Source: Candidatus Falkowella caecavicola
GTDB taxonomy: Bacteria > Bacillota > Clostridia > Oscillospirales > Ruminococcaceae
DNA: 47,468 nt
Direction of reading: 5' to 3'
Assembly: GCA_904420125.1 (NCBI GenBank)
Contig: CAJFUK010000066.1
Coordinates: 1-47,468 of the forward strand
The notes under the pieces were generated by a model. It did not search any database, was not told the DNA's origin, and saw nothing but the letters and a program-made list of their open reading frames with translations. A program made the translations under genes and the position numbers. Within the stretch, counting starts at the first letter, position 1, and each line of letters begins with the position of its first letter. This document shows, piece by piece, positions 14,796 through 32,869 of this stretch.

Positions 14796-14999
14796 ATGTG
14801 GACTTATGATAAAAAATTACAATACCCTGTAAAAATTACAAAAACAAACCCTTCTCTTGCGAAAGTCATTATCAGTCAGTTTGGCGGGCCGGATGGCGAG
14901 CTGGCTGCATCTCAAAGATATCTTAGCCAGCGTTATACAGCAACCGACGGTCGTATTAAAGGCGTACTCAACGATATAGGTACGGAAGGGTCAGAATGA
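14796..14999 (+). CDS. cotJC: cotJC, 5' part: N-terminal fragment of Mn-catalase-like coat protein, interrupted
   Basis: Codons 1-61 are genuine CotJC (MWTYDKKLQYPVKI..., GGPDGELAASQRYLSQRY) and include the first Mn-ligand Glu in DGELAA. After NDIGTE the reading leaves the family and stops at 14997-14999 with three foreign codons. The rest of the gene is 17.4 kb away at 32441-32869. The break is immediately before the ExxH metal-ligand motif, so this 67-residue product cannot bind a dimanganese centre. AGGAGG precedes the ATG, so the fragment should be translated. Joining codons 1-61 to 32441 onward gives a 203-residue protein, close to the usual CotJC length. Confidence 0.93.
   Translation: MWTYDKKLQYPVKITKTNPSLAKVIISQFGGPDGELAASQRYLSQRYTATDGRIKGVLNDIGTEGSE
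14977..14983. other. attL core of the cotJC element
   Basis: TAGGTAC here is repeated at 32439-32445. The next base differs (G here, A at the right end) and is followed by GAAG in both. Left of the core is cotJC; right of it is element sequence. The differing base is the third base of a Thr codon, so crossover on either side restores the same protein. Confidence 0.8.
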
Positions 15000-15123
15000 T
15001 ACACGACTTTGAAAAATGGCGGTATACTACCATTTTTCGCACTTGAATTTTCCGAAAAAACGTGCAAAACATCGGGTTCACAATGACGCACAGGCTTTTT
15101 CTTTGTGTTTTGCTGTTTTTCAT
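14979..15123 (-). pseudogene. 5' part of an ORF that spans the circular junction (attP)
   Basis: On the minus strand the frame that reads KKKPVRHCEPDVLHVF ... VVYHSDPSVP runs into the left end. If the element ends are joined, the same frame continues without a stop into 32440-32179 (TGGSQWRTDA ... PLKGGEDK) and ends overlapping the parB ATG. The ATG at 15123 is in another frame, and an eight-base extra segment just after it could explain this, so the gene may be frameshifted near its start. Product unknown. Confidence 0.5.
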
Positions 15124-15463
15124 GGTATATTCTTTTCTCTTTGCGAAGTAAAGTTGCCTTATTTCCGGAATTGTGCGATTCACCGTAAAGTGAATTGCCG
15201 ACAACGTCAGCAAAGCACAAAACGGGCGTTTGAAAAAATTCAAACGCAAGGCTCCATTGTTTTATGTATGGCGGGTCATCCCGCCTTTTTATTGATCCCC
15301 AAAAGCAAAGCCTTCTTTGCTTTTGGGATACTCCCAGTGTAGCCAAGAAGGCCGTAGATGGCGAATGTGCGAGCTGATTTATTAAAGTAAATATTTATTC
15401 TGCTGAAATAAGGGAACTCTATGTATATCTTAATATGAATTATTTGAAAGGTAGAAGACCAAA
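15000..15463. other. Left-end non-coding region of the element
   Basis: Apart from the junction-spanning frame, this stretch holds inverted repeats: AAAAATGG/CCATTTTT near 15011-15036, TTCAC/GTGAA near 15178-15194, and a long ATCCC...GGGAT hairpin at 15295-15329. These could be recombinase-accessory or termination structures. I see no other gene. Confidence 0.5.
15270..15290 (+). terminator. Rho-independent terminator at the left end
   Basis: GGCGGG and CCCGCC flank a four-base loop and are followed by TTTTT on the plus strand. It would stop transcripts entering from the cotJ operon before the element cargo. Confidence 0.7.
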
Positions 15464-15835
15464 ATGGAAGCCTTTGAAGAATATCTGTCGAAAATTGAAA
15501 ATGACGCGCACCGTTCCCGAATGCGGGAAGTGCTTACCTGGGTGAAAAGCACTTTTCCGATGCTAATGCCGAAAATTGCCTGGAATCAGCCGATGTTTAC
15601 CGACCATGGCACGTTTATCATTGGATTCAGCGCCGCCAAAGGGCATTTCGCCGTCTCACCGGAGGCACAGGGAATGGCGGCGTTTTCCGATGACATCGCA
15701 AAATCGGGATATAGCCAGACGAGCAATCTTTTCCGCATCCAATGGGACGAACCAGTGGACTTCCCCTTGCTGGAGCGCATTATCCGGTACAATATCGAGG
15801 ACAAAAAAGACTGCACCACCTTCTGGAAGAAGTAG
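15464..15835 (+). CDS. DUF1801 domain protein (YdhG/frataxin-like iron chaperone family)
   Basis: The 123-residue protein matches the DUF1801 family: MREVLTWVKSTFP, PKIAWNQPMFTDHGTFIIGFSAAKGHFAV (key parts WNQPMF, FIIGFSAAKGH), then a C-terminal FWKK. The Bacillus relative Fra (YdhG) has a frataxin-like role in iron handling. The start follows GAAAGG. It is directly followed by the AlkD-like gene, with only 23 bases between, so the two are probably co-transcribed. Both lie between the left end and the recombinase. Confidence 0.85.
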   Translation: MEAFEEYLSKIENDAHRSRMREVLTWVKSTFPMLMPKIAWNQPMFTDHGTFIIGFSAAKGHFAVSPEAQGMAAFSDDIAKSGYSQTSNLFRIQWDEPVDFPLLERIIRYNIEDKKDCTTFWKK

Positions 15836-15858
15836 CCACCACGATCGGAGGAATGAGA

Positions 15859-16566
15859 TTGGATTTAGCATCCGTTATGGCTGAACTGGAAGCGCTAGGG
15901 ACAGAGCAAACCAGAAAAACCTATCGAAACCACGGGGTACAGGAGCCCCTGTTTGGAGTAACGCTTCGGGACATGAAGCCTCTGGCCAAAAAGATCAAAA
16001 AGGACCATGCCCTTGCCATGGAGCTTTACGCCACCGGTAACTACGACGCACAAACGCTGGCGGGAATCCTTGCCGAGCCGAACAAAATGACCGCCGCGGA
16101 TTTCGAACTTTGGATGAAGGTGGCAAACTGCCGGGCTACAGCGGACTACGTGGTGGCGGTCACATTGGCGGAAACCGACTTTGCGGAGGAACTTGCCGAC
16201 CGCTGGATTGACAGCGGGGATACGAACTACCAGTCCACCGGGTGGAACTGTTATTGCCGACTCCTCGCCAGCCGCCCTGACGAGCAGTTTGACCGAGAAA
16301 AGCTGAGCAAGATGCTGCAACGCGTAATTCGGGACATCCACGGGCGGTCCAACTGGGTGAAATATGCCATGAACAGCTTTGTCATATCGGTTGGTATTTC
16401 CTATCTCCCATTACACGAAGAAGCAATGGAAGCCGCCCTGAAAATCGGTGCTGTTTCGGTCGACCACGGGAATACCACCTGTAAAACACCGCTGGCAGCA
16501 GAGTATATCCGCAAAGCAGAAGAAAAACAGCGTCTGGGCTTCAAAAGGAGAAAGGCACGATGCTAA
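15859..16566 (+). CDS. DNA alkylation repair protein (AlkD-like HEAT repeat)
   Basis: The 235-residue protein resembles AlkD-family glycosylases, built of HEAT-like helices. Family segments include NHGVQEPLFGV, TGNYDAQTLAGIL, STGWNCY, VKYAMNSFVISVG and DHGNTTCKTPLAAEYI. Members excise N3- and N7-alkylpurines. TTG 15859 is the likely start, seven bases after GGAGG; an ATG at 15853 touches that site. It ends six bases from the convergent recombinase stop. Substrate is inferred from family only. Confidence 0.85.
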   Translation: MDLASVMAELEALGTEQTRKTYRNHGVQEPLFGVTLRDMKPLAKKIKKDHALAMELYATGNYDAQTLAGILAEPNKMTAADFELWMKVANCRATADYVVAVTLAETDFAEELADRWIDSGDTNYQSTGWNCYCRLLASRPDEQFDREKLSKMLQRVIRDIHGRSNWVKYAMNSFVISVGISYLPLHEEAMEAALKIGAVSVDHGNTTCKTPLAAEYIRKAEEKQRLGFKRRKARC

Positions 16567-16572
16567 ATTCGC

Positions 16573-18150
16573 TCAACCATCTCTTGACGTCGCCAAGTTT
16601 TCCAGCACATAGGTCCATTTGGTAGGCAACAGCTTCAAATGTACCTCCATGCGCCGATCAGGGTAGGCGGTGATGTGGTCGAGCAGATTGCCATAGAAAT
16701 TGCCGGAGGTGGTCTCTCCCCTGACGATGCCCGTTACCTTGGCGCGGATATCCTTCTCCAGTGTGGCGGTGTCGTAGGACAGGCTTTCCCGTTTCTCCGC
16801 CGTCGCAATTTTTTCGGTGAGTTCTGCGATATGGCGGTCGTATTCGGCATTCATCAGCTTCATGTCCTCTTTGGAAATACTTTTGGCGAAAAAGGCGTCC
16901 AGCATCGCCGCTTTCTTTGCCTCAATCTGCTCCAGTTCTTTTTGCAGCCGCTGGGCGCTGAGCTGGCTACTGTCCTGAGAAGACTGGATGGCCTCCAGCA
17001 CCATACGGGTAATGTCGCGGACAATGGCGTCTGTATCCAGCTTTAGCATTCCCACCGCCTGCCGCACCATCTCCATCCCCACTTCGTCCCGAAGTTGATA
17101 GCTCACGTTGCAACCGACCTCATTGCCTGCCGGATCGATGTGGTACTTGCCCTGCGCTGTGGTGGTGCCGCACCGCCATGCCTTGTAGCGGCTGTCGTCC
17201 TTTCGCCGGCGGCTGCGGGAGACAAAGCTCTGTCCGCACTCGCTGCACTTGATTTTTCCCGACAGCGGATAACGGTTACCGTGGCCGGTGCCGCATTTGC
17301 CGTCAATGTCCCGTCGGACGATCTCGCGCTGAGCTTCTTCCCACAGCTCCCGGTCGATGATGGGCTCGTGGTGGTCTTTGAGAAAGACGAATTCCTCCTC
17401 ACCTCGGTTGTATTTCTTCTGATGAGTGAGATAGTCTGGGGTGATGGTCTTTTTCTGCTTCAAGTCCCCGCAGTATTTCTCGTTGCGAAGGATTTTTAAA
17501 ATCACGGTATTCCGCCAGCTTGTGCTGCCGGTAAGAGTCTTGTATCCCGCCTCCCGCAGTTCCCTGGCGATCATCGTGGTGCCTTTTCGCTCATGGACAT
17601 ACTTATGGAAAATCAGACGGACAATCTCCGCCCCCTGCGAATTTACAGTCATTTTGCCGCCCTGCACATCATATCCCAGCAGGGAACGGCCGAACACCAC
17701 ACCCTGTTCCATCTGGCGGGTCTGGCCCCATTTGACTCGGGCGCTGGTGGAACGGCTTTCCTCCTGCGCCATAGTGGATTTGATGGCCAGCAGCATTTCG
17801 GAGTCCTCTTTGAGGGTGTTCATGTTGTCATTCAGAAAGAAAACGCCGATTCCCATTCGCTTGAGTTCCCGGGTATAGGTAAGGCTGTCCAACGTATTGC
17901 GGGCAAAACGGGAAATCTCTTTTGTCACGATCAAATCGAACCGGTGAAGCCGGGCGTCGCTGATCATACGGTTAAATGCCGCGCGCTTTTGGGTGCTGGT
18001 GCCGGTGATGCCCTCATCGGCGTAAATCTTATATAGCTCCCAATCCGGCTGGTGGTCGATGTATTCCCGAAAATACCGCTGCTGGCTTTCAAAGGAATTG
18101 ACCTGATCCTCTTTATCTGTGGAAACACGGCAGTAGGCTGCAACTTTCAT
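16573..18150 (-). CDS. Large serine recombinase / site-specific integrase
   Basis: The 525 residues show the full large-serine-recombinase layout. The N-terminal resolvase domain has YCRVST with the catalytic Ser (about residue 10), ISRFARN and the DSEMLLAIKSTMAQEES segment. Next is a recombinase domain with ARELREAGYKT and LKILRNEKYCGD. A zinc ribbon follows (CSECG about residue 293, then WRC and GCNVSY). A coiled coil covers about residues 395-460. No frameshift or missing catalytic residue is visible. A GAAAGGAG site precedes ATG 18150. It is the only recombinase seen in the element and so the candidate for both insertion into and excision from cotJC. Confidence 0.95.
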   Translation of the reverse strand: MKVAAYCRVSTDKEDQVNSFESQQRYFREYIDHQPDWELYKIYADEGITGTSTQKRAAFNRMISDARLHRFDLIVTKEISRFARNTLDSLTYTRELKRMGIGVFFLNDNMNTLKEDSEMLLAIKSTMAQEESRSTSARVKWGQTRQMEQGVVFGRSLLGYDVQGGKMTVNSQGAEIVRLIFHKYVHERKGTTMIARELREAGYKTLTGSTSWRNTVILKILRNEKYCGDLKQKKTITPDYLTHQKKYNRGEEEFVFLKDHHEPIIDRELWEEAQREIVRRDIDGKCGTGHGNRYPLSGKIKCSECGQSFVSRSRRRKDDSRYKAWRCGTTTAQGKYHIDPAGNEVGCNVSYQLRDEVGMEMVRQAVGMLKLDTDAIVRDITRMVLEAIQSSQDSSQLSAQRLQKELEQIEAKKAAMLDAFFAKSISKEDMKLMNAEYDRHIAELTEKIATAEKRESLSYDTATLEKDIRAKVTGIVRGETTSGNFYGNLLDHITAYPDRRMEVHLKLLPTKWTYVLENLATSRDG

Positions 18151-18465
18151 TGCTTTTACTCCTTTCCTTCTTGCGATGTTTTGGCGGTTTCGGCTTGCCG
18201 AAATCGTGGCCGTTCCGGCTGTAAAGGCACAAAACTCGTTGTATGAAAAATTTATCTTTCACACTGCCCTTGTCTCTTTTCATTGTAACGGGTCTATCTC
18301 AAAAACACGAATGTGCGAATTTGATTTTTTCTCTATGTAAAGCGGGAAAAGGGACGTGTAAAATCTTTTATTTTTCACGGCCCCGAAAAAACTCTTGCGG
18401 GTCATAAAAGGGACCCGCGTTTCGCATCGATTAGATGCGAAACGCGCTTTTTCTCCAACATAAGT
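18151..18465. other. Recombinase upstream region
   Basis: This 315-base stretch contains the presumed recombinase promoter region, with a TTACAAT element near 18280 on the minus strand but no clear -35, and the terminator listed at 18416-18452. No gene is supported. Confidence 0.4.
18416..18452. terminator. Terminator between small element gene and recombinase
   Basis: A 13-bp perfect stem, CGCGTTTCGCATC with its complement around loop GATTA, is followed by CTTTTT on the plus strand and a weaker T tract on the minus strand. It lies just downstream of the 58-residue gene ending at 18466. Confidence 0.75.
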
Positions 18466-18642
18466 TCAATTTTGATGATTCAGTGTGTCCAAACAGTGCT
18501 GAATTTGTACTTCGTTTAAAACGCCCTGCTCTTTCAGAGCAATCAAAACCGACTGCTGGTACAGCCGGTAGAATTCCGGTGTGTCCGTTTTGCTGACTAC
18601 GATTTCTTCGGTACATTCCAAAAATACCGCTTTATTCCCCAT
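18466..18642 (-). CDS. Small conserved element protein of unknown function
   Basis: The 58-residue product (MGNKAVFLECTEEIVVSK ... LIALKEQGVLNEVQI) resembles a small protein commonly found beside serine recombinases in Clostridia mobile elements. ATG 18642 is preceded by an excellent GGAGGTGAGG ribosome site; an ATG at 18675 is too far upstream to use it. There is no domain I can name. Its position, transcribed toward the recombinase, leaves a regulatory or directionality role open, but nothing in the sequence proves it. Confidence 0.7.
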   Translation of the reverse strand: MGNKAVFLECTEEIVVSKTDTPEFYRLYQQSVLIALKEQGVLNEVQIQHCLDTLNHQN

Positions 18643-18771
18643 TGGCCTCACCTCCCGCGTCAGCACAAATTCCATTTTTCTCGGGATGACTTTAAAAAGT
18701 TATCCCTCGATCATTCCGCTGTGCTTCCTTTCCCCCAAAAGCCTTCGGCTTTTCAGGGGTCCCATAAATAC

Positions 18772-19265
18772 TTATGAGGAAAAATGTTTGGCTTTGCCTG
18801 TCCGTTGCTTCTTTTTTGGATGGAAGTGCTTGACATAGCGAATGTAGGAGCGAATGGAGAGATCGTCTGTGGAAATACCGGTTCCAAATAACTTTTTTCT
18901 CAGTTGCATCAAGTCGCGTTGGATGCTGCGGCGGACGGCACTTTCGTCCACGTCTTCACTTCTGGCAATCTGAGAGTAGTTTTCCTCACAGAAAAAGTGC
19001 CGGTAAATAATGCGGACAGCCTGCTTACCCGGCAGACTGTTCAGAACGTCGTATAAAATGCGATAGGATTCCATCCGAATAAAAATTCGGCAGGGATCTA
19101 CGTCGTAAGCCATACACCGGCTTTTCAGATAATCTCGAAGTCTTTCATCATCGAGTGAAAAGACAAGCCTGTTCTCCGATCCCGTTCTTTTTGGGCGTGC
19201 TCCGCTTTGTCGAATTCCTTCACAATGGCTCTCCAGATGGTTATACTTTTTGCTTCACATGTCAT
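18772..19265 (-). pseudogene. Sigma-70 region-4-like element regulator, frameshifted near the start
   Basis: The frame from about 19250 to 18772 encodes a protein opening SKKYNHLES, then GARPKRTG and VFSLDDERLRDYLK, and a C-terminal sigma-like DNA-binding segment (YSQIARSEDVDESAVRRSIQRDL). The only good ribosome site, AGGAGG, leads to ATG 19265, which is in a different frame; the shift is in an A5 run close to the start. A shorter product from ATG 19113 (113 residues) is still possible. Similar proteins are common on Clostridia conjugative and mobilisable elements. Confidence 0.6.
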
Positions 19266-19970: not shown

Positions 19971-20440
19971 TTATTTCAAAATATTTTTCAATCTCTTTTC
20001 TGCGTTGCCACCGATTTTGCAACAGCTTGAAACGGACACCTCTCCCTTTTTGCAATCTGCTTATAAGTCACACCTTTAAAATAATACAGAATCAATCTGC
20101 GCCGCTGTGTATCCGATAATTGGGAGATCGCATGATGAAGTCGTCCGTACTCCAGTTTGCGGATAACGGCATCCTCAAAGGATTCAGATTTATCTATAGC
20201 CCGTAAATTGAGGGAAGTCTCCGTCTGTGCCGATTGTTCATAATGCCTGTCCACTGCGTTGAGATAAGAGAAATCTTCCAGTTCAAAGCGATCCATAAGA
20301 TTGAATAGTTCCCTATACATCGTGATTTCCCGTAATGCTCCTTGTCCGTCTCGAAAGAAAAGGAAGTGCTGGCCCTCAATTTTGGCAAGGGTGTAGAGGT
20401 TATCTTTGGCTTTTCTTCGTTTAAGACGTTTTTCGTCCAT
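19971..20440 (-). pseudogene. Sigma-70-like factor of the mobile element, C-terminal frameshift
   Basis: ATG 20440 begins MDEKRLKRRKAKDN, followed by LEDFSYLNAVDRHYEQS and a region-4-like QRRRLILYYFKGVTYKQIA. The frame then departs after AVAKSV and stops at 19988. In the next frame GNAEKRLKNILK ends at 19971 and matches the usual C-terminus, so one base has been lost. A mostly intact protein of about 150 residues could still be made. A GGAG site upstream partly overlaps the hairpin at 20452-20489. Confidence 0.65.
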
Positions 20441-20451
20441 AGCCTGTGGCT

Positions 20452-20489
20452 CCGACGATCTGAATTTCAAGAGAAATTCAGATCGTCGG
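20452..20489. promoter_or_regulatory. 16-bp perfect hairpin upstream of the sigma-like gene
   Basis: CCGACGATCTGAATTT and its exact complement flank a six-base loop. On the minus strand the 3' arm ends in CGG, which forms part of the GGAG ribosome site of the sigma-like gene, so the hairpin could limit translation. Confidence 0.5.
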
Positions 20490-20493
20490 TGAA

Positions 20494-20832
20494 CTACGGC
20501 AACCTTTGCCAGAAGCAGGCTTGTCCTGCGTTCTGGCAAAAAAACGACGCAAAAAAATCCGCAAAGGCCGTCAAGCCATTGCGGATCTCGGAAAAGCAAC
20601 TTCTATGATACAGAGATTTGGCTTCTCCATTTAAGGTATAGATCTGCCATGCAAGCTCGGAATTTTTTAATAGATGATGCCCATGTTCATACAGGGCTAT
20701 GTAGGTAACTGCTGCTTCGAATCGGCAGCAAAGCGCAGGTTGCCCAGCGTATAAAAAGTCCCTCCTATCTAAAAAAACAAATTTGGAGGGATTCACAAGA
20801 TCAGGGTAAAAAGAGGTATCCCTCCAAATCAC
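20494..20832 (-). CDS. Hypothetical element ORF, possibly decayed
   Basis: The 112-residue frame has a protein-like middle (VTYIALYEHGHHLL, NSELAWQIYTLNGEA, NGLTAFADFF) that reminds me of small accessory proteins on Clostridia elements, but I cannot name a family. The N-terminal part lies inside a 12-bp inverted repeat (20781-20792 / 20818-20829) and has only a GTG start with no ribosome site, so the true start is uncertain and the gene may be a remnant. Confidence 0.3.
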   Translation of the reverse strand: MIWRDTSFYPDLVNPSKFVFLDRRDFLYAGQPALCCRFEAAVTYIALYEHGHHLLKNSELAWQIYTLNGEAKSLYHRSCFSEIRNGLTAFADFFASFFCQNAGQACFWQRLP

Positions 20833-21365: not shown

Positions 21366-21378
21366 AGGAACATCCTCC

Positions 21379-21665: not shown

Positions 21666-22436
21666 TTATCTCCTTTCAGTAGCGCTAAACCGCACACAGG
21701 CGATTCCCAGTGCAATCACGGTAATCAAAACAGCTACCGGCAGCCAGGGTAGCCAGGCGATTTGGGTTTCATAAACTCCTTCGGCAGAGCGTCCGTACTC
21801 CACCATCAGCAGGTAGAAAGGATAGCTCATCGGATAGGCAAACCAGATCTTCGTGTTAATCATTAGAACCGACGGAACAATGGAAGCAAGGCCAATCCCG
21901 ACCGAGAAGACCGGTGTCTGAATCAGGTTGGCAATCATCCAGAACACCGCTGCCATGGGGATAGCTCCGGCATAAAGACTGAAAACAACCCGGCAGACAT
22001 AAAGTGGATTCAGAAAGAAGCTGTAGTCTTGCATCTGAGAAGCAATTGCTGCGCTGCCGTAATAAGCAGCGATGGTCATGACCATCTGGGCAAAAGCCAG
22101 TAAGATAAGCACTGTGAATTTAGCTAGGCAGAGCTTTGCGGTATTCACCGGCAAGGAGAGCATTTTCAGAATGCCTTTGTTGGAACGCTCAGTTTGAGTG
22201 AGCAGTACCGTACCGACCACCAGCGACGCGGGAATCATAAACCAGACCATTCCCATGAAGCCCTGAATAAAGAAGTTATTCTCCGGGGTAATGGGGATTC
22301 CCCGTGTATCGAAGTTCATGTCAGCGTTGATGATGCTTGGAATCCACATGATAATGACCGGTATCAACAGAATCAGCAGGATTTTGGAACGGCGTATTTT
22401 CTTTAACTCTACGCCTGCAAGAGAAAATAGGTTCAT
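21666..22436 (-). CDS. Lantibiotic immunity ABC transporter permease, MutG/CprC type
   Basis: The 256-residue permease has six predicted helices and begins MNLFSLAGVELKKIRRSK, typical of ABC-2 lantibiotic-protection permeases. Its ATG overlaps the stop of the preceding permease gene (ATGA), with GGAGG eight bases upstream. With its partner and the ATPase it forms a CprABC-like complex that removes antimicrobial peptides from the membrane. Confidence 0.85.
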   Translation of the reverse strand: MNLFSLAGVELKKIRRSKILLILLIPVIIMWIPSIINADMNFDTRGIPITPENNFFIQGFMGMVWFMIPASLVVGTVLLTQTERSNKGILKMLSLPVNTAKLCLAKFTVLILLAFAQMVMTIAAYYGSAAIASQMQDYSFFLNPLYVCRVVFSLYAGAIPMAAVFWMIANLIQTPVFSVGIGLASIVPSVLMINTKIWFAYPMSYPFYLLMVEYGRSAEGVYETQIAWLPWLPVAVLITVIALGIACVRFSATERR

Positions 22437-23158
22437 TCTGCACACCTCCTGATCTTTTGATAAACAAGCTCCAGCACCCCAAAAGCCACGGTTTCAGCGG
22501 TACAGATCCCTAAAAACAGCAGAACACGGCTACTTTCCGCTGCCATAGCTAGGGTTTGATAGGGTGAGCTGAACGGGCAAAGGCTTAAGATCAGGTTATC
22601 CTGCGGGAAGATGGACATTGTAAATACCAAAATCACGCCAATTCCCAAAGATACCCACATGTTTTTGCAGGCGGAAGCAATCACCAGCATCAGCATGACT
22701 GTAGGGAGGGTAACAAACCACTGGAAGCCTGCACTCTTCAAAAGCTCCAGCGCGTCAAATTCATAACTTGGAAACCAGTGAATGACGCATCCGGCAAGGA
22801 CAGCGGTTTCTATTGCTACCATCAGGGCAAGCACCAGCGCGGCAATCACAAACTTCATCCAAAACAGATTGCCTGTCCGGACCGGCAGGACATCCATTTT
22901 CTGTGCTCCGTTGTCGGCATACTCGGTGTGGTACATCAGGCAGGCACCGCAGATGCAAACCAGAATGTTGAGCATGGCCATCATCTGCCAGTTAGCGTCC
23001 ATCAGGATGATAAAGGGGTCCCCCGGCAGGGTGGTAAAGGTTTCCGCACGGACCAGCATATTGATGAGCGGGAACGCCGATGCCAGCAGCCCGCCCGCCA
23101 GAAAGGCAGGAAAATACCCTGTCCGTTTCAGCTTTTTCGTTTCCAGTGCCACTGTCAT
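22433..23158 (-). CDS. Lantibiotic immunity ABC transporter permease, MutE/CprB type
   Basis: A 241-residue ABC-2 permease with about six helices. It starts within an ATGA overlap with the ATPase stop, so it is translationally coupled. Two small permeases with one ATPase is the classic lantibiotic-immunity layout (LanEFG, CprABC). Confidence 0.85.
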   Translation of the reverse strand: MTVALETKKLKRTGYFPAFLAGGLLASAFPLINMLVRAETFTTLPGDPFIILMDANWQMMAMLNILVCICGACLMYHTEYADNGAQKMDVLPVRTGNLFWMKFVIAALVLALMVAIETAVLAGCVIHWFPSYEFDALELLKSAGFQWFVTLPTVMLMLVIASACKNMWVSLGIGVILVFTMSIFPQDNLILSLCPFSSPYQTLAMAAESSRVLLFLGICTAETVAFGVLELVYQKIRRCAE

Positions 23159-23910
23159 CTTCCAGCACCTCCCCTGCGGTTGTCCTCGTCAATCATGGCA
23201 AGGAAGGTATCCTCCAGATTGTCGGTGGGAAACCCGGCGGAACGAGCGCTGGTTTTCAGATCCTCCATTGTCCCCTCAAAGAGCAGGCGGCCGTGGTTGA
23301 GAATCCCGATATCGTCCGCCATCAGCTCCACTTCCGGTAGCAGATGAGAGGAAACCAGCACCGTGCAGTCATACTGCTGAGGCAGGGACTTAATCAAGGT
23401 GCGAATCTCGTGGATTCCTACCGGGTCTAAGCCATTGGTAGGTTCATCGAGGATAAGGATAGGCGGCCGGCCGATCAGCGCGCCTGCCAACCCCAGTCGC
23501 TGCTTCATACCCAGGGAATATTTTTTCGCCAGACGCTTGCGGAACTGGGTCAGCCCCACCAGCTCCAGCGCGTCGGAAACACTACTTTTCGGCAGACCGA
23601 GAATTTTTTGGATGATCTCTAAATTTTCCTCCCCAGTCAGATTACCATAGAAAGCGGGCGCCTCAATAAAGGAACCGACTTCTTTCAAAATGGCCACCCG
23701 GTCGGAGGGATAGGTTTTTCCATCAATGTGGAAGCACCCCTCAGTCGGATGCGTCAAGCCGAGAAACATCTTCATGGTGGTGGACTTCCCCGCGCCGTTA
23801 GGACCGAGAAAACCGTAAACGCTCCCCTTTCGGATATGCAGATTCAAATGGGAAACTGCTGTAAAGTCCCCATAGGTTTTGGTGAGATCTTGAGTTTCGA
23901 TTATATTCAT
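23155..23910 (-). CDS. Lantibiotic immunity ABC transporter ATP-binding protein, CprA type
   Basis: The 251-residue ATPase has Walker A GPNGAGKS (about residue 37), a Q-loop region near VGSFIEAPAFYGNLTGEEN, the ABC signature YSLGMKQRLGLA (LGMKQ variant typical of lantibiotic transporters), Walker B LILDEPTNGLDP and the switch His in VSSHLLPEV. It starts the minus-strand operon, divergent from the two-component genes, under a weak TATACT promoter next to phased repeats. Confidence 0.93.
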   Translation of the reverse strand: MNIIETQDLTKTYGDFTAVSHLNLHIRKGSVYGFLGPNGAGKSTTMKMFLGLTHPTEGCFHIDGKTYPSDRVAILKEVGSFIEAPAFYGNLTGEENLEIIQKILGLPKSSVSDALELVGLTQFRKRLAKKYSLGMKQRLGLAGALIGRPPILILDEPTNGLDPVGIHEIRTLIKSLPQQYDCTVLVSSHLLPEVELMADDIGILNHGRLLFEGTMEDLKTSARSAGFPTDNLEDTFLAMIDEDNRRGGAGR

Positions 23911-24061: not shown

Positions 24062-24763
24062 ATGGATCAACATTATTACAAACAGAAAAAAATCCTTCTC
24101 GTAGATGATGAGAAGGAGCTTTTAGATATGGTTTCTGACTTTCTACGGGAGGATGGCTATACACAGATTCAAACGGCAAGTACCGCTACGGAGGCAATAA
24201 CCGCAGCAAAAGAATGGAACCCGGATTTCGCTATCCTCGATGTCATGCTGCCAGACATGGATGGCTTTTCCCTGTTTGAACAGCTGCGGAAGTTTACAGA
24301 GATTCCGGTATTATTCCTGACCGCCCGCGGTGAAGATGAAGACAGGCTCCGGGGCCTCGGCCTTGGCGCCGACGATTATATGGTAAAGCCGTTTCTGCCC
24401 AAGGAATTGCTGCTGCGAATGGGAATCATCCTTCGGCGATATTACAAGGAAGAAAACCCGCTGGTGCGGCTTGCCGGGAGCCAGATTGATTTTTCCCGGG
24501 CAGAAGTCATCAAAAATGGCGAGCACATGCCGTTGACGGCCAAAGAGCACGATATTTTACAGGCTTTATATCGCAATGCTGGCCGGATTGTGACCATTGA
24601 CCAGCTCTGCGAGGCGGCTTGGGGCGATAACCCGTTTGGCTATGAAAACAGCCTGATGGCTCATATCCGCCGGATCCGGGAAAAGATTGAAGAAAATCCA
24701 TCCAAGCCGGTATCCCTGATCACGGTCAAGGGGCTGGGATATAAGCTGGTGCTGGAGGGATAA
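24062..24763 (+). CDS. OmpR/CprR-type response regulator
   Basis: The 233 residues comprise a receiver domain (VDDEKEL, phospho-acceptor Asp in FAILDVMLPDMDG, TAR, and VKPF) and a C-terminal winged helix (LTAKEHDILQALYRNAGRIV, MAHIRRIREKI, VKGLGYKL). The start follows AGGAGGG. The adjacent kinase and divergent ABC operon imply that it activates peptide-resistance genes on antibiotic stress, as CprR does in Clostridioides. Confidence 0.92.
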   Translation: MDQHYYKQKKILLVDDEKELLDMVSDFLREDGYTQIQTASTATEAITAAKEWNPDFAILDVMLPDMDGFSLFEQLRKFTEIPVLFLTARGEDEDRLRGLGLGADDYMVKPFLPKELLLRMGIILRRYYKEENPLVRLAGSQIDFSRAEVIKNGEHMPLTAKEHDILQALYRNAGRIVTIDQLCEAAWGDNPFGYENSLMAHIRRIREKIEENPSKPVSLITVKGLGYKLVLEG

Positions 24764-24766
24764 GCG

Positions 24767-26167
24767 GTGAAAAGTACATTCAAACTCATCCGGCGGTTTA
24801 TAAAGATCCTGCTGCTGTCGTTCATCGGCTTGATGGTATTGAATATCGCGCTGCTTATTTTCGTTGTTTCGAGATCGGAGTCCAACTCCGGCGGCTGGAA
24901 GGCCACGGAACAGCTTGGAATGGAATTAACGGAAACAGAAAACGGCGGGTATATGCTGTCGGAAAAGGGGCAGGAAATTTTACAGAAAAGAAATGCCTGG
25001 GCAATTTTGGTCGAAGATGAGACCGGCGATGTGGTCTGGCACAGCGATAATCTTCCGGATGACATTCCGCTTCATTACTCGGCGGCGGATATCTCCTACT
25101 ATACACGCGGGTATATTGAGGATTATCCTACGACCACCGCTGCCCGCGGAGACGATCTGATTTTTATGGGACATCCGAAAGATATGTACTGGAAGCATAT
25201 GTGGCCAGCCTTTGATTATCAGCTGATTGCCAATTCACCGAAAATCATCTTGATGTTCCTAGTGGTCAATTTACTGGCGATCCTGGTCATTTATTTTGTG
25301 TCCACATCGGGCGTTTTGAGATCGGTGAAGCCGATCGTTTCAGGAATTGAAGCTTTGCCGGAGGGCAAGGAGATTTACATTAAAGAAAAGGGCCTGCTGT
25401 CGGAACTGGCTGCTGCGATCAACCAAGGCTCCGAAAAACTTATGCAGCAGGACCGGGAACTGAAGAAAAAAGAGAGTGCCCGGGCTAACTGGATTTCTGG
25501 CGTTTCTCACGATATTCGCACCCCGCTTTCCATGGTAATGGGTTATGCCGGACAGTTGGAAGAAAGCAGCGCACTTTCCGAAGAAGACCGCAGGAAAGCG
25601 TCCATCATCCGGCAGCAGAGTCTCAAAATGAAGAACCTGATCAATGACCTGAATTTAGCCTCCAAACTGGAATACAATATGCAGCCGCTGCATCCGGAGC
25701 CGGTGAATTTGGTGGCGGTAGCAAGGCAGTGCGCGGCGGATTTCATCAATGCGGATTTAGAGGGTAAGTACCCGGTAGACTGGAAGACGGACGAAGACCT
25801 AACCGCCTGTGTGATACAAGGAGATAAGGACTTGCTGCGTCGTGCGGTTAACAATCTGCTGAACAATGCCCAGTCACACAACCCGGAGGGATGTGCCATT
25901 TCTGTGGAAGTCCGGGAAGAAACAGACAGCTATTGCATCTCCGTGGAGGACGACGGCGTGGGCATTTCCGATGAACAGCTGGAGAAACTGCGGAACACGC
26001 CGCATTATATGATGAGCGACAGCGGGACAGAGGAACCGCGTCACGGCTTGGGACTGCTGATTGTCCAGCAGATTGTAAAGGCGCACGGAGGGTCTATATC
26101 GTTTCATCATGGGAAAAGTGGTGGATTTATGGTTCAGATGATTTTCGCGATCTCTGCTCCCAAATAA
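24767..26167 (+). CDS. Sensor histidine kinase, CprK-like
   Basis: The 466-residue kinase has one N-terminal transmembrane helix (about residues 12-34), an extracellular domain of about 120 residues, a second helix (IILMFLVVNLLAILVIYFV) and a linker. The HisKA domain has SHDIRTPLS with the phospho-His, and the ATPase domain has NNLLNNAQSHN, EDDGVGIS and HGLGLLIV. It starts at GTG three bases after the regulator. Its ligand is unknown; by context, an antimicrobial peptide. Confidence 0.92.
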   Translation: MKSTFKLIRRFIKILLLSFIGLMVLNIALLIFVVSRSESNSGGWKATEQLGMELTETENGGYMLSEKGQEILQKRNAWAILVEDETGDVVWHSDNLPDDIPLHYSAADISYYTRGYIEDYPTTTAARGDDLIFMGHPKDMYWKHMWPAFDYQLIANSPKIILMFLVVNLLAILVIYFVSTSGVLRSVKPIVSGIEALPEGKEIYIKEKGLLSELAAAINQGSEKLMQQDRELKKKESARANWISGVSHDIRTPLSMVMGYAGQLEESSALSEEDRRKASIIRQQSLKMKNLINDLNLASKLEYNMQPLHPEPVNLVAVARQCAADFINADLEGKYPVDWKTDEDLTACVIQGDKDLLRRAVNNLLNNAQSHNPEGCAISVEVREETDSYCISVEDDGVGISDEQLEKLRNTPHYMMSDSGTEEPRHGLGLLIVQQIVKAHGGSISFHHGKSGGFMVQMIFAISAPK

Positions 26168-26176
26168 TGTCAGGAA

Positions 26177-26425: not shown

Positions 26426-27596
26426 TCATACATCCCGGCGTTGTATTCGTTTCGGTAACCGATCATCATCCTTGCACCGGCTGATCTGCTTATACACACG
26501 ATCCCGTTCCTGAATTAGGGCAGGAATCTTCTCTTGCATATTCTCTATAAAAGTCTGTAACTGCTCTGCCGTGTCGATCTGCTCGCGGTAGAGCAGTCTT
26601 GCCTGTTCGGAGTATTTCTCCGCCCTGCGGATTTCGGCGCGGAGGGCGGCGCTATAATGCGGGTGAGGATTTTTACGGATAATACCCAACAGATAGCAAT
26701 AATGGAGATACAGCCCCCGAAAGCTATTCTTACTAACTGTAAATGGACGTATCTTCGGCGGTGGAGGCAACGGACGGCTGGGCGTTCGGCTTTGTAAAAT
26801 ACGTCGGCGGATGGCCTCTTCGGTGTAATCCTCCCCCAGCGTCTTAAAACGCGCCGGATGTTTGGTGCCGGGGATTTGCAGCGTGTTGTACTTGCATTGG
26901 GAATCGTAACGCACCAGATATCCCATTCGCTGAAGCGCCTGATAAAAAACCGCTCGGTAAAGGATCGGCTAAGGGCATTGTCGATGTCCTGCCGCATGAG
27001 GTTAATACTGGGGTGGACAACCCGGCCTTTTCCGCCAGATACAGACTGCGGGGTGTTTTGCTTTTCTGCGGATTTTCGACGACGGACAGCCCATATTCGC
27101 GGCAGATTTCGTCCGACAGGCGGCGGAATTCCCAATAAGTGGTTTTGTAATCGTTGTAGCGCTTGCCATCCATGAAGGAGACACAATTGAGCACGAAATG
27201 GTTATGCAGGCAATTGGTGTTCAGATGAGTAATCACGACAACCTCGAACCGGCCTCTCCATAACTTCCGGGCCAACTCCACGCCGATTTTGTGGCACTGA
27301 GCCGCCGTGCCCTCGCCAGGCTGAAAATTCTGGTAAGCATGAAAAGCCATGTTGCCGCCTGTTTTCCCAAAGCGCAGTTTCATCATCGTCATATGCTCCG
27401 CCACTGTTTCAGGAATACAGTTGATCCCCGTTACATAACAGAAATGATCGGTTTTGTCGGTATTCTCCGCATAGTCTAATACCTGCGTGAGGTCATGCTG
27501 CAAAACAGCATTATTGGTAGTCTTTTCCGGATTCATGATATAAACCACCACCCGCACGATACTGTCTTTGATGTTCCAGATTTTTGTGACTGCCAT
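26426..27596 (-). pseudogene. Relaxase / mobilisation protein, two frameshifts
   Basis: ATG 27596 begins MAVTKIWNIKDSI, and the frame carries HAYQNFQPGEG and the metal-binding HLNTNCLHNHFVLN motif of relaxases. It leaves the family after LYLAEKAG near 27015. The next frame continues with INLMRQDIDNALSRS, then a second shift in a T6 run near 26948 restores MGYLVRY ... IPGTKHPARFKTLGEDYTEEAI to the stop at 26426. The catalytic N-terminal domain alone (about 195 residues) could be made, but the full protein of about 390 residues cannot. This marks the element as a former mobilisable element. Confidence 0.88.
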
Positions 27597-27648
27597 AGGG
27601 TTTCCCTTTAAAAGCCAAGCGGAGAGATGAAGCCCTCCGCTTGGCCGC

Positions 27649-27939
27649 TTAGACATCTTTGAATAAACGTTTGTGTTCCGTAAGAAAGGTATCCCGCATA
27701 AAGCCGGCACCGAGAATAAAGCCATCCAAAAAGCTCTCATATGCGGCAATGCCGTTTATCTCACTCTGAGTATTGACAAGATCCAAAAACTGGCTTTTCA
27801 GTTTTCCTTCCAGTTCTTCTGTAAGAATGTCCTCATTTTTTGAAATCACCGAAATCGCCTTTTCATACTGGGAATCCTGTGAAAAGCTCCGTTCGTTGGG
27901 GTGGATATTCCCATAGAACAGCTCCTCGATAAAATTCAT
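27649..27939 (-). CDS. DUF6809-like small protein
   Basis: The 96-residue protein opens MNFIEELFYGNIHPNERSF and ends with FILGAGFMRDTFL, a layout typical of small helical proteins found next to the mobilisation genes of Clostridia elements. It lies between mobC and the relaxase gene. Function unknown. Confidence 0.7.
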   Translation of the reverse strand: MNFIEELFYGNIHPNERSFSQDSQYEKAISVISKNEDILTEELEGKLKSQFLDLVNTQSEINGIAAYESFLDGFILGAGFMRDTFLTEHKRLFKDV

Positions 27940-28004: not shown

Positions 28005-28298
28005 CTATTTTTCAGATTTGACAGGTTCGGGTAGTGTGACGGCGGCCTGTAATTGCAGGATGAAGCGTTACGGTTCCCCTCGTTCCAACGCAGATTGGGG
28101 CAGCTTGGCATTCAGCTCGTACAGACCAGTCATCAACTTATGATAGTCTATCGGCGGCGTTTCCTTGGGATGGAAGCCGTTGATCAGTAGTCGCACATAA
28201 GCGGAAACTGTCAGTCCGGACTTGCGGTTGTGCTGTTTTAAGCGTTGGTTCTCCGCTTCAGTGGGGTGGATATTCAGTTGTACGGTTCGTTTTCTCAT
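28005..28298 (-). pseudogene. mobC: MobC-like relaxosome protein, truncated
   Basis: ATG 28298 begins a ribbon-helix-helix type protein (RTVQLNIHPTEAENQRLK, LTVSAYVRLLINGFHPKE). It stops at TAA 28068 after 76 residues. In the same frame after the stop, LQLQAAVTLPEPVKSEK to TAG 28005 resembles the family C-terminus, so an internal deletion and a stop have damaged it. The DNA-binding domain remains. Confidence 0.7.
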
Positions 28299-29631: not shown

Positions 29632-29660
29632 TTTGAAATCCTCCTTGCGTGAAAAAATTT

Positions 29661-30197
29661 TTACACATCCTCTACTTCAATCCACTGCTGATCTTCCGCT
29701 ATTCGTCCGCCGGTCTTCTGGATGATCGCCAGTGGATCGTATTCATCAAGATCCAGCGCTTCCAAATACTCCCGTAATCCAGCACGTTCTTTGGGGATGC
29801 AGCGTTCCTGCAAAAAGGTTTGAAAGTCCTCCCAATTGGGGACCGGGTTGTTTCCAAAAGCGGTTTTCACCGGATCATCTACATGGTTTTCTGCCGCAAG
29901 GGTCTCGTCGGTAAAATCCGCGTAGATGGTGGTGCAGAGCCGGTCGCCATCGTAAAAGCACAAGCGCCATACTTTATGCCCCAGTGCACGCTTCTGCTTG
30001 GCAAATTCTGAACAGGACAAACGGCAGGTCAGAATGATTTGATTTCCGTCAAAAAAAAGTGCCACATCCCGCTGCTCCAGACTAATCCCCATCGCTTCGA
30101 CCCAGGCAGTGGGCAGTGTGACCTTGCAGGTTTTTGCGCCCTTCGCCGCCGTACCGCCCGCCGCACTGATATTGATTTTTGCCAACCGTTTTTCCAT
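29661..30197 (-). CDS. AbrB-like partner of the HipA-like kinase
   Basis: The 178-residue protein begins MEKRLAKINISAAGGT, then TCKVTLPTAWVEAMGI, a swapped-hairpin AbrB/MazE-like DNA-binding signature, and a longer acidic C-terminal domain ending IAEDQQWIEVEDV. ATG 30197 follows AGAGGTGATC; an earlier in-frame start has no site. It probably represses its own promoter through the palindrome at 30228-30240 and counteracts the kinase, by analogy with toxin-antitoxin pairs. Confidence 0.7.
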   Translation of the reverse strand: MEKRLAKINISAAGGTAAKGAKTCKVTLPTAWVEAMGISLEQRDVALFFDGNQIILTCRLSCSEFAKQKRALGHKVWRLCFYDGDRLCTTIYADFTDETLAAENHVDDPVKTAFGNNPVPNWEDFQTFLQERCIPKERAGLREYLEALDLDEYDPLAIIQKTGGRIAEDQQWIEVEDV

Positions 30198-30217
30198 ACA
30201 GATCACCTCTTGTATTT

Positions 30218-30246
30218 ATTATATACTATTCGGTACGAATAATCAA
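30218..30246 (-). promoter_or_regulatory. Promoter and operator of the AbrB-HipA-like pair
   Basis: TTGATT (30246-30241) and TATAAT (30223-30218) are 17 bases apart on the minus strand. The spacer contains the inverted repeat ATTCG-GTA-CGAAT (30228-30240), well placed for autorepression. Confidence 0.65.
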
Positions 30247-30312
30247 TAATTATCTAACCAGCAAACCATTCGTCTCGATTTTCTTTCCCAATGCACCAAA
30301 GGTGAAAATCTG

Positions 30313-30338
30313 TGCTATAATAGTTTAAAGGTTTAAAC
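30313..30338 (+). promoter_or_regulatory. Promoter and palindromic operator of the ArsR-nitroreductase pair
   Basis: An extended -10 TGCTATAAT (TATAAT at 30316-30321) is followed at once by the palindrome GTTTAAAGGTTTAAAC (30323-30338), which overlaps the transcription start. This is a plausible ArsR-family operator. Confidence 0.6.
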
Positions 30339-30377
30339 CATTGGGCATATTTCATATGTCTTCAAAGGAGGATGGGT

Positions 30378-30743
30378 ATGGACGAGTGTAGAGTACAGCG
30401 GCAGTCACTGGCGGAGGAATTCAAGGCACTGCAAGGCTCCTTTGTGGCGCTGGGAGATGAGACCCGCCAGCAGATCTTTATCGCCCTGCTGGAGTATGAA
30501 ACTGTGGGCATGCGTGTGCCTGAAATCACCAAGCGCACCCATCTTTCCCGCCCGGCCGTGTCCCACCACCTGCGTATCCTCAAGGACGCCGGGCTGGTCA
30601 ACGTCCACCGCCAAGGCACCATGAATTATTATTACGTGGATGCCAACCTAGGCAAATGGAGTGAGATCAAGGCACTGGTGGATCACGTGTGTCAGGTGGC
30701 ACAGGATGCCGCACGAGCCCATTACCCCCATTTAGAAGAATGA
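30378..30743 (+). CDS. ArsR-family winged-helix regulator
   Basis: The 121-residue regulator has ALQGSFVALGDETRQQIF and the recognition segment THLSRPAVSHHLRILKDAGLV. ATG 30378 is six bases after GGAGG; an ATG at 30372 is adjacent to the site. There is no obvious Cys metal cluster (only one early Cys), so it may sense something other than a metal. It is 13 bases upstream of the nitroreductase gene. Confidence 0.85.
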   Translation: MDECRVQRQSLAEEFKALQGSFVALGDETRQQIFIALLEYETVGMRVPEITKRTHLSRPAVSHHLRILKDAGLVNVHRQGTMNYYYVDANLGKWSEIKALVDHVCQVAQDAARAHYPHLEE

Positions 30744-30756
30744 AAGGATGATTGTC

Positions 30757-31431
30757 ATGACGATTTTAGATGCGATACAAGCCCGCCATTCGGTGCGCAG
30801 CTACAAGGATATCCAGCTGAAGCCGGAGGATATCCAGATCCTGCAAAAAGAAATCGACGCCTGCAACAAGGAGGGCGGACTGCATATCCAGCTGGTGACC
30901 AACGAGCCAAAGGCCTTTGACAGCTTCATGGCTCATTACGGCAAGTTCTCCGGCGTGCAAAATTACATTGCACTCATCGGAAAAAAGAGCGCCGACTTGG
31001 AGGAGCGCTTGGGCTATTACGGGGAGCGGCTGGTTCTGTTGGCCCAGACACTGGGACTGAATACCTGCTGGGTGGCTATGACCTTTGGCAAAGGGGCGGC
31101 CAAGAGTCGCTGCACCATCGCGTCCGGGGAAAAGCTGGTGTGCGTGCTGTCCCTTGGTTACGGCGCCACACAGGGAATCGCCCACAAGAGTAAGCCCATG
31201 GATGCTCTATGCCAAGTGGAAGGCGCTATGCCAGAATGGTTCCGCAAGGGCATGGAAGCGGCGATGCTGGCCCCTACGGCCATGAATCAGCAGAAATTTA
31301 TGATTTCTCTCAGCGGAAACACCGTCACAGCAAAATCTTTGGGCGGCTTTTATTCCAAAACAGACCTGGGTATCGTCAAATACCATTTTGAGACCGGTGC
31401 AGGAAAAGAAAACTTTACTTGGGCAAAATAA
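30757..31431 (+). CDS. Nitroreductase-family FMN protein
   Basis: The 224-residue protein opens with ILDAIQARHSVRSYKDI, the FMN phosphate-binding start of nitroreductases, and has GLNTCWVAMTFGKGA and the C-terminal APTAMNQQKFMISL. Family members use FMN and NAD(P)H to reduce nitro compounds or quinones. Pairing with an ArsR regulator suggests induction by a toxic compound. ATG 30757 follows AAAGGATG. Confidence 0.87.
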   Translation: MTILDAIQARHSVRSYKDIQLKPEDIQILQKEIDACNKEGGLHIQLVTNEPKAFDSFMAHYGKFSGVQNYIALIGKKSADLEERLGYYGERLVLLAQTLGLNTCWVAMTFGKGAAKSRCTIASGEKLVCVLSLGYGATQGIAHKSKPMDALCQVEGAMPEWFRKGMEAAMLAPTAMNQQKFMISLSGNTVTAKSLGGFYSKTDLGIVKYHFETGAGKENFTWAK

Positions 31432-31445
31432 AAAACATATAGGTT

Positions 31446-31484
31446 ACTGTCTGCAATGCAATAAGTATTGCAGACAGTATTTTT
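31446..31484 (+). terminator. Terminator after the nitroreductase gene
   Basis: ACTGTCTGCAAT and its exact complement flank a nine-base loop and are followed by ATTTTT. Confidence 0.88.
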
Positions 31485-31500
31485 ATGCGTAAATCAGTTC

Positions 31501-32182
31501 CTAGCGTATGATTTCCTCCGCTTCAATCAAGCTTCACAGCTCCGCCTGCTCTTCTTTGGTGAGATATGAAAGCTCCACCACTGGGGAAAAAGCGATGCGT
31601 TTTTGATCGATCAGTTCCAACAGCGGCGAGGCAAGCTCGGTCAGGCGGATATAACGTAACACTTGGTTACGACTTTCACCAGTCTGTTCTTCAATTAAAG
31701 ATGCAGTATCCGTTTTTTAGACTTCGTCACAATTTGTGACGAAGTCGCTTTTCCCTGATGCTTCAATGCTTCCAGTTTCATCTTATAGGCAAAGGCCTTT
31801 TCACTGGGGAGCAGGTTCTCCCTCTGAATGTTGCTATCCACCATCAGAATTACCGCCTCATCATCGGCTGTCCCGTACCAGAACGGGCAGCTTTTCCATC
31901 CTCAGCACTCCGCCTCCATCTTGCGCCGGGGTGGTCACTGACGATCTCATACCCACCCTCCACCGGCCTTGCCATCAGCGGGGAGAGCACGCCGTATTCT
32001 TTCATGCTCTGGCACAGCCTGTCCATTTTCTCGTCCTGCAAGACCTTGAAAGGATGGTTTTGAAAAGGGTTCAGTTCTACTACCGGGATTTCCTGCACCC
32101 GTTCTAGTTTTGCGTCCTGCTGTTCTTCAATAAAAAACAGGTCACCGAAAGAGGACAGCGGCAAATCCAGCTTCTTGCTCAT
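31501..32182 (-). pseudogene. parB: ParB-like partition protein, frameshifted
   Basis: ATG 32182 starts MSKKLDLPLSSFGD, then IPVVELNPFQNHPFKV and GGYEIVSDH of the ParB/Spo0J N-terminal domain. The frame is lost in a G/C-rich stretch near 31915. Further parts appear in other frames: DEAVILMVDSNIQRENLLP, then GESRNQVLRYIRLTELASPL and IAFSPVVELSYLTKEEQ, to TAG 31503. At least two frameshifts and an early stop are present. The start overlaps the stop of the junction-spanning frame. Confidence 0.82.
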
Positions 32183-32440
32183 TTATCTTCACCACCTTTT
32201 AAGGGGGTGAAGATTTTTATGTCACCTTTCGCGACGGTAAAGTTCCTTGCGCCATCTTCCGGCAGGGCGACCAAGACATCCACCTGCCAAAAGACATTGG
32301 ATGAACGGGTTTTACTCTCCAACGTAAAGGAAAACAGGCAATTTGGTTTTCGCACATTCCCGTTTTCCGGCTTATCCGCGCCCGCAAACCCGCATAGGAC
32401 AAGGCTTTGTGCGTCCGTGCGCCATTGTGACCCTCCGGTA
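32179..32440 (-). pseudogene. 3' part of the ORF that spans the circular junction (attP)
   Basis: The minus-strand frame entering from the right end reads TGGSQWRTDAQSLVLCGF, KPENGNVRKPNCLFSFTLES, NVFWQVDVLVALPEDGA and PLKGGEDK, then TGA inside the parB ATGA overlap. It has no start of its own here; joined to the left end it continues VVYHSDPSVP in frame. The product would be about 125-130 residues and is unknown. On the integrated element it is promoterless. Confidence 0.6.
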
Positions 32441-32445
32441 GGTAC
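32439..32445. other. attR core of the cotJC element
   Basis: TAGGTAC, identical to 14977-14983. Element sequence lies to the left, and cotJC codon 62 begins at 32441. The next bases, AGAAG, differ from the left end by one base. Confidence 0.8.
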
Positions 32446-32869
32446 AGAAGAACTGGGTCATATGGAAATGGTCTGCGCCATTATTTATCAGCTGACCAAA
32501 GACCTGTCTATTGACGAAATTAAAAAAAGTGGTTTTGACACTTATTATGTAGACCATACAACAGGTTTATATCCTGTCGCCGCATCCGGTGCGCCTTTTA
32601 CCGCTTCCTATTTTCAATCAAAAGGAGATACACTGACCGACTTGCATGAAAACCTTGCAGCAGAGCAAAAAGCGCGTACAACATATGATAATATTTTGCG
32701 TCTGGTAGATGATCCTGAAGTCAGAGATCCGATTAAATTCCTGCGTGCACGGGAAATTGTTCATTATCAAAGATTCGGTGAAGCACTTCGGATTGCGCAG
32801 GATAACTTGAATTCAAAAAATTTCTATGCATTTAATCCTTCGTTTGATCAAAGAAAAAAATTCAAATAA
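32441..32869 (+). CDS. cotJC: cotJC, 3' part: C-terminal fragment of Mn-catalase-like coat protein
   Basis: The frame from GTEELGHMEM to the stop at 32867-32869 is CotJC residues 62-203. It holds the ExxH metal motif ELGH and the second REIVH motif (E and H ligands), plus the family segments YYVDHTTGLYPVAASGAPF and NLAAEQKART. No stop or frameshift is present in 142 codons despite the lack of a promoter and start of its own. An upstream in-frame ATG at 32207 would fuse 78 foreign residues and is not credible. A terminator follows. Confidence 0.93.
   Translation, partial: GTEELGHMEMVCAIIYQLTKDLSIDEIKKSGFDTYYVDHTTGLYPVAASGAPFTASYFQSKGDTLTDLHENLAAEQKARTTYDNILRLVDDPEVRDPIKFLRAREIVHYQRFGEALRIAQDNLNSKNFYAFNPSFDQRKKFK

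Follow-up and report, generated by a model that had tools for sequence, protein, structure and literature searches.

Elements that are excised from sporulation genes have, in the literature examined, been described one gene at a time, in Bacillus and a small number of pathogenic clostridia. In the skin element of Clostridioides difficile, excision takes place in the mother cell, and the recombination directionality factor (RDF) CD1234 (72 aa) is encoded by the element and controlled by sigmaE (PMC5025042). Here we analyze a 17.46-kb element that carries a large serine recombinase and splits the coat gene cotJC of Candidatus Falkowella caecavicola; it lies in a 47,468-nucleotide stretch of DNA (GenBank assembly GCA_904420125.1, contig CAJFUK010000066.1, positions 1 to 47,468), hereafter the window. 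The window element is best explained, from its sequence and that of its relatives, as a member of a large class of cotJC-intervening elements, in which three recombinase clades appear to target one coat gene, at three sites, in genomes across Clostridia.

Like skin in sigK, the window element cuts a sporulation gene with a large serine recombinase element, and it has a small open reading frame (ORF) that is a candidate counterpart of the small RDF of skin; unlike skin, the cotJC elements hit a coat enzyme gene rather than sigK, and do so class-wide (PMC5025042). Whereas the skin recombinase is expressed constitutively, the small ORF and recombinase of the cotJC elements adjoin, often behind a common sigmaE-like promoter (PMC5025042). 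SP-beta in spsM of Bacillus subtilis is likewise a mobile element, and its excision at sporulation restores an envelope gene, but SP-beta is an active phage and the window element a mobilizable-type island with an interrupted relaxase frame (PMC4191935). The gin element in gerE of Bacillus cereus resembles the window element in being non-phage and having a serine recombinase, and the rejoining of gerE needs an extra factor; gin, however, is 28.6 kb with three recombinases, whereas the window element has one, and related elements are as small as 2.4-2.9 kb (PMC5595907). In yin, a recombinase element in yabG of Clostridium botulinum, a clostridial sporulation gene is again the target, and a putative small RDF and a possible SigK promoter are described; yin is reported in one strain only, whereas cotJC elements are widespread (PMC10747680). 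The phi027 prophage of C. difficile is also a mobile element at a CotJC-family gene, although it adjoins the CotJC homologue (the gene downstream of attR) and is not described as splitting or rejoining it (PMC11222575, PMC12122855). The original prediction for this locus, made from the window's sequence alone, knew of no described case in cotJC; our literature searches, with most subscription papers and all bioRxiv preprints outside them, likewise found no description of a cotJC-intervening element, and novelty is unproven.

The interrupted cotJC gene

The cotJ operon, the two element junctions, the recombinase gene and the small ORF of the window are arranged as follows.

14194 to 14526, plus strand: cotJA, first gene of the cotJ operon (PF11007 CotJA, E 3.8e-17); start codon uncertain
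14517 to 14783, plus strand: cotJB (PF12652 CotJB, E 2.1e-30)
14796 to 14978, plus strand: cotJC N part, codons 1-61 (PF05067 positions 1-65); the frame runs on into the element to a stop at 14999
14979 to 14980, plus strand: attL crossover dinucleotide GG, the first two bases of the Gly62 codon
14981 to 15000, no strand: left end of the element, one arm of a dyad attP (symmetry 15/20, against 5.1 in shuffles)
16573 to 18150, minus strand: large serine recombinase, 525 aa, complete (PF00239, PF07508, PF13408), its 3' end towards the cotJC N part
18466 to 18675, minus strand: small ORF upstream of the recombinase, 69 aa (an inner Met start is possible), without a Pfam or NCBIfam match; putative RDF
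32421 to 32440, no strand: right end of the element, the other arm of the dyad attP
32441 to 32442, plus strand: attR crossover GG, at the start of the cotJC C part
32441 to 32869, plus strand: cotJC C part, codon 62 to stop (PF05067 positions 62-198, E 1.5e-31)

The cotJC of the window is thus a sporulation gene cut into in-frame pieces by an element inside it, and the anatomy given in the original prediction is exact to the base: codon 61 finishes at 14978 and the gene picks up with codon 62 at 32441. The heptamer TAGGTAC, which had been placed at both junctions, occurs at 14977 and 32439 and nowhere else in the window, the two copies lying 17,462 bp apart. Joined in silico, the N and C parts form one open frame of 203 codons, which is of family length, again as predicted, and regains the motif GTEELGH; the recombinase is complete, with Resolvase, Recombinase and Zn-ribbon domains. 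PF05067, the Mn-catalase profile, has two matches in the assembly from which the window comes, and both are these pieces. A second intact cotJC, which the original prediction counted as evidence against a skin-like system, was not found by this search in an assembly of 2.45 Mb in 78 contigs that is 92.2% complete, so that the missing part may hold a further copy. The host also has spoIVA.

Recombinase clades and crossover sites among relatives

Named genomes were scanned with the window's recombinase family, and the best 80 of 582 confirmed places were taken as clade A, to which the window belongs. A cotJC piece is present in the fetched locus for 74 of these 80 (73 by search and one more by eye at a contig end), lying within 1 kb of the recombinase in 61 loci and 1.4 to 8.2 kb away in 12; of the remaining six loci, two stop no more than 222 bp from the recombinase and four have no visible cotJC. 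Clade B is distant and crosses over near codon 65; a cotJC piece is present in 14 of its 30 fetched loci, among them 12 of the 13 nearest the query. In clade C, with crossover at codon 30, the figure is 18/19. The three clades form three branches with SH-aLRT support of 100 in a quick tree of 111 rows, a tree that carries a warning that long branches meet. The association is strong and suggests that these recombinases are specialized on cotJC. The arrangement of ends varies: in L041, L142, L156 and others of clade A, the recombinase sits towards the C part of cotJC instead of the N part.

All 26 clade A elements with both ends read, the window's included, have the GG of the Gly62 codon at both junctions, and their element ends allow a dyad attP to be deduced, with a mean symmetry of 13.5 of 20 bases (5.6/20 for shuffled arms and 5.9/20 for attB). 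Joined cotJC pairs are 180-230 codons long in 20/27 cases, the window included. Among the other seven, the clade B locus L050 was read in the wrong register, L084, L088 and L159 have a first piece that starts at codon 28-29, from which we infer a second split, L136 lacks a full-length start, and L121 and L128 have a short C part. Break sites in the joined protein fall at GGPDGE (codons 30-35), at GTEELGH (62-68) and near ENLAAEQ (131-137), motifs that presumably hold the metal ligands of Mn catalases; because ligand codons are conserved, they would make durable attB sites.

In the window's family, 134 of 197 genomes (its own included) match PF05067, and 46 of the 134, about a third, have only cotJC pieces among the matches listed. 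We scored a genome as having pieces only if its best PF05067 match was weaker than 1e-45, a threshold of our own applied to the match table, and some of the 46 may be contig-end cuts or poor relatives. At 35 loci (L033-L067), chosen by a match end near profile positions 28-30, 56-66 or 150, the gene breaks inside contigs near codons 62-65 in 22, near codon 30 in eight, near codon 136 in three and at both 30 and 136 in two. Many relatives have cotJC interrupted at one of these few shared positions. Since the loci were chosen in this way, other break points need not be rare, and matches among those listed also stop elsewhere (for example, G034 at 1-90, G038 at 1-161 and G120 at 100-197). The break near codon 136 is seen in L061-L065, with L064 and L065 also broken at codon 30; L061 has a recombinase alongside.

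Splits also vary within genera. All members of one genus of three species are split, two at codons 30 and about 136 and one near 62-65. In genus g93, two of seven species are intact—the uninterrupted gene thus occurs among congeners of other carriers—and three are split at codon 30, one at 62 and one (G525) at both. G525 holds its three cotJC pieces in order on a single contig; the first gap contains a recombinase of clade C, the second one of clade A. The clade C elements of this genus look like separate arrivals, with recombinase identities of 47-76%. A split cotJC is also present in the one-contig genome G348, and in the cultured Lactonifactor longoviformis DSM 17459 a 9013-bp element lies in cotJC, with a joined frame of 207 codons. 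The split is not an isolated case; class-wide reach, at least three sites, three recombinase clades and one gene in three pieces lay beyond what the original prediction could see in the window's sequence alone.

A search of viral contigs with the cotJC N part gave one locus only, L160 (IMGVR_UViG_3300017589_000256), which has a cotJC piece (codons 25-60) and also a clade C recombinase. Single cotJC pieces occur in unannotated gut 'Bacteriophage sp.' records (H33, H34, H39-H41), including MT839280.1 and MT837874.1; these two match the clade A recombinase too and may be bacterial element ends. L114, from a metagenome-assembled genome labelled Bacteroides, has a cotJC piece and a clade A recombinase, and is probably mis-binned or mislabelled.

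Selection, small cassettes and the putative recombinase promoter

The sister species G178 and G525 both have a clade A element at codon 62 and share both element ends. Over 176 codons compared, their cotJC genes differ by 38 synonymous and no non-synonymous changes (~3.5e-24 under neutrality). The left element end joined to the N part is 91% identical over 722 bp, similar to the host flank at 90%, and the recombinase end joined to the C part is 82% identical; synonymous divergence (dS) is 0.58 for the recombinase and 0.38 for cotJC, which makes a recent shared transfer unlikely. The simplest reading of these alignments is that cotJC has been under purifying selection while split. A second pair, sharing one clade B element, differs by 28 synonymous changes and one non-synonymous change over 110 C-part codons (a path count; the proteins are identical), and an intact g93 pair has a similar omega, 0.025, at a high dS of 2.37. 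The first loci gave no clear case of long-term vertical inheritance, because recombinases move between hosts, and the pairs used here were drawn from genomes of the same genus. The original prediction also took decayed halves in related strains as a point against it, and in related genomes the halves are mostly still open.

Short elements tend to retain the recombination machinery. Twelve of the 26 clade A elements with both ends read are smaller than 5.2 kb, in fetched regions that favor short elements; a recombinase frame of at least 480 codons is present in 10 of the 12 (exceptions L116 and L157) and an attP symmetry of at least 12/20 in 10 (exceptions L084 and L154). The evident genes of the smallest, L136 (2437 bp), are the recombinase and small ORF only; among elements whose joined gene is full, L137 is the smallest (2932 bp, 206 codons joined). 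A profile built from 41 small ORFs matches upstream of 73 of 81 clade A recombinases, the 41 being among them, and the small ORF is a candidate directionality factor by analogy with CD1234 of skin (PMC5025042).

Upstream of the clade A recombinase operons we counted ATA-N13-18-CATA, a motif picked after viewing 42 upstream regions, in 19 of the 36 non-redundant ones (2.6 +/- 1.3 in shuffles, 3 on the reverse strand). The same motif precedes 15 of the 283 other genes of these loci, from which recombinase and cotJ genes had not been removed (Fisher p 3.8e-12). The sequence CATAnAnT is found in 15/36 (1.7 in shuffles, 1 on the reverse strand), whereas TATAAT has no excess (2/36 versus 50/283). 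The spacing between ATA and CATA peaks at 17, with 14 pairs in 14/36 loci versus 0.6 expected; we take ATA-N17-CATA, by comparison with the consensus, to be a sigmaE-type promoter. The recombinase operon of clade A thus often appears to have a sigmaE-like promoter; in the cultured carrier L143, the motif match overlaps the end of the cotJC C part. Upstream of cotJA the ATA-CATA pattern is not enriched (15/63, versus 11.0 in shuffles and 15 on the reverse strand), and the -10 alone, CATA[CT]A[ACT]T, is (15, versus 3.4 in shuffles and 5 on the reverse strand).

Proposed mother-cell excision and its alternatives

We propose that the large serine recombinase would recombine the dyad attP with an attB that consists of the conserved cotJC residues Gly62-Glu65, with crossover at the GG of the Gly62 codon. 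As cells sporulate, the small-ORF/recombinase operon would be turned on in the mother cell by sigmaE, the factor that in Bacillus subtilis drives cotJ too. The small protein would turn the recombinase towards attL x attR excision (compare CD1234 of skin, PMC5025042). The element would then leave as a circle, restoring cotJC in the mother cell, where it is needed, and the forespore would keep its copy of the element. As a class, cotJC-intervening elements are probably excised in the mother cell at sigmaE timing, as skin is; for the window's own element we propose the same timing with less confidence. A broader formulation, to which we give about an even chance, is that cotJC is a class-wide programmed-rearrangement gene of Clostridia, used by at least three recombinase clades with one conserved motif each. 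At one extreme the elements would be mobile islands and at the other cassettes of 2.4-2.9 kb made up mostly of recombinase, which resemble introns at the DNA level; in some species two independent mother-cell excisions would be needed to rebuild the gene from three pieces.

Several observations weigh against this proposal. The excised circle was not seen, and the 30-mer of the window's attP has 0 matches in viral contigs. The window operon has a -10-like CATAAGTA without an ATA at -35 spacing, and the motif was not found in the window's near relative L041, nor in the cultured carriers L126 and L127; among the cultured carriers examined, it was also not found in L094. The motif was chosen after viewing, and two of the 36 loci have no cotJC piece (L091, which has the motif, and L118). 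Clades B and C give no promoter signal clearly above control: in 400-base upstream regions, the motif occurs in 6/20 for clade B (2.6 in shuffles, 3 reverse) and in 6/30 for clade C (2.7 in shuffles, 6 reverse). The skin-like system of the original prediction is supported by purifying selection on the split gene and by the sigmaE-like promoters often present in the recombinase clade, but the promoter evidence for the window's own element is weak.

The history and integrity of the elements add further difficulties for mother-cell excision. The left end in G178 is present in two copies on two contigs (L041 and L267), 96% identical over 536 bp, perhaps from tandem or nested elements in one cotJC; with these two copies, and a recombinase end at 82% against a host flank at 90%, the history of this element is not simple. 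Some clade A elements move between hosts: their recombinase dS is 0.13-0.36, against a dS for cotJC that is saturated or near 1.9. Many splits may therefore be recent. Among 88 loci with clade A-type recombinase frames, at least 480 codons are open in 81 and one is shorter at a contig end; six are cut short although no contig end is near, a loss that would lock the split, and the recombinase of L121, with its decayed C part, is among these six. Weak halves also occur with an open recombinase, in L128 (short C part) and in L136, whose N part is only 41% identical and lacks a full-length start.

The remaining genes of the window element are as follows.

15464 to 15835, plus strand: DUF1801 protein, cargo (PF08818)
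15844 to 16566, plus strand: DNA alkylation repair protein, cargo (PF08713); the ORF opens at 15742
18772 to 19113, minus strand: sigma-70 region 4-like regulator (PF08281, under the curated cut-off)
19988 to 20599, minus strand: sigma-70 region 4-like protein (PF08281)
21666 to 23910, minus strand: three cargo ORFs resembling an ABC transporter (two permease-like, one ATPase-like), named by sequence reading only
24062 to 26167, plus strand: two cargo ORFs resembling a response regulator and a sensor kinase, named by sequence reading only
26426 to 27749, minus strand: MobA/VirD2-type relaxase region (PF03432, E 1.5e-36 on the domain ORF 26844-27749)
27649 to 27939, minus strand: DUF6809 protein (PF20648)
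28068 to 28298, minus strand: NikA-like mobilization protein (PF21983)
30372 to 30743, plus strand: ArsR-type regulator, cargo (PF01022, NF033788)
30748 to 31431, plus strand: nitroreductase, cargo (PF14512)
31850 to 32182, minus strand: ParB N-terminal domain protein, 110 aa, which looks truncated (PF02195)

The relaxase domain ORF stops early, with a possible continuation in another frame at 26426-26926 that has no family match; the interruption is either a broken gene or an assembly error. The mobilization module, with its interrupted relaxase, NikA-like protein and short ParB-like protein, is apparently in decay, and the element's own mobility is doubtful because the relaxase frame is interrupted and the ParB-like protein short.

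Such elements could have settled in cotJC as a cheap target, a conserved gene that is needed at most in the doomed mother cell, with rare excision for transfer and a spore that goes without this catalase. The relaxase and NikA-like genes would fit, as would recombinases that are 98-99% identical in hosts of widely differing cotJC and must therefore be mobile. C. difficile mutants of CotJC homologues are reported to have less catalase and a coat without significant defect (work cited in PMC11222575). We nevertheless regard this explanation as unlikely: none of the 38 changes between two species that both have the split is non-synonymous, many recombinase operons have sigmaE-like promoters, and most small elements keep the recombinase and dyad att sites.

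Excision might instead be real and not developmental, occurring spontaneously during growth so that some cells have an intact gene on which selection acts. The excised yin element was seen at all time points (PMC10747680), clades B and C are without a clear sigmaE-like promoter, and that of the window is incomplete. The sigmaE-like pattern upstream of more than half of the clade A operons (19/36), where TATAAT shows no excess, makes growth-phase excision a doubtful account of the class.

We reject a split enzyme, whose halves would be translated separately and assemble without excision, as very improbable. Although the halves are still open in most carriers, the window's C part can be read only from inner Met codons or as the end of a frame whose GTG start, at 32207, belongs to the element; the breaks lie by the GGPDGE, GTEELGH and ENLAAEQ motifs, and one gene is in three pieces. 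An assembly or binning artefact, which the many metagenome-assembled sources might suggest, is ruled out for practical purposes by the split in the one-contig G348 and in cultured L. longoviformis DSM 17459 and by junction bases identical in 26/26.

If excision of the cotJC elements is confirmed, developmental DNA rearrangement would be common in the gut flora. The elements offer a comparative system for asking why mother-cell genes are targeted, together with a large collection of recombinases, their att sites and candidate directionality factors; they are also a warning that such split genes may be annotated as broken.

Two features of the window outside the element provide context.

42970 to 43650, minus strand: sigE, the mother-cell sigma factor gene (TIGR02835, above the curated cut-off), on the same contig
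32958 to 35378, minus strand: a long secreted protein adjoining the cotJC C part, which reads by eye as a glycoside hydrolase with a dockerin-like end

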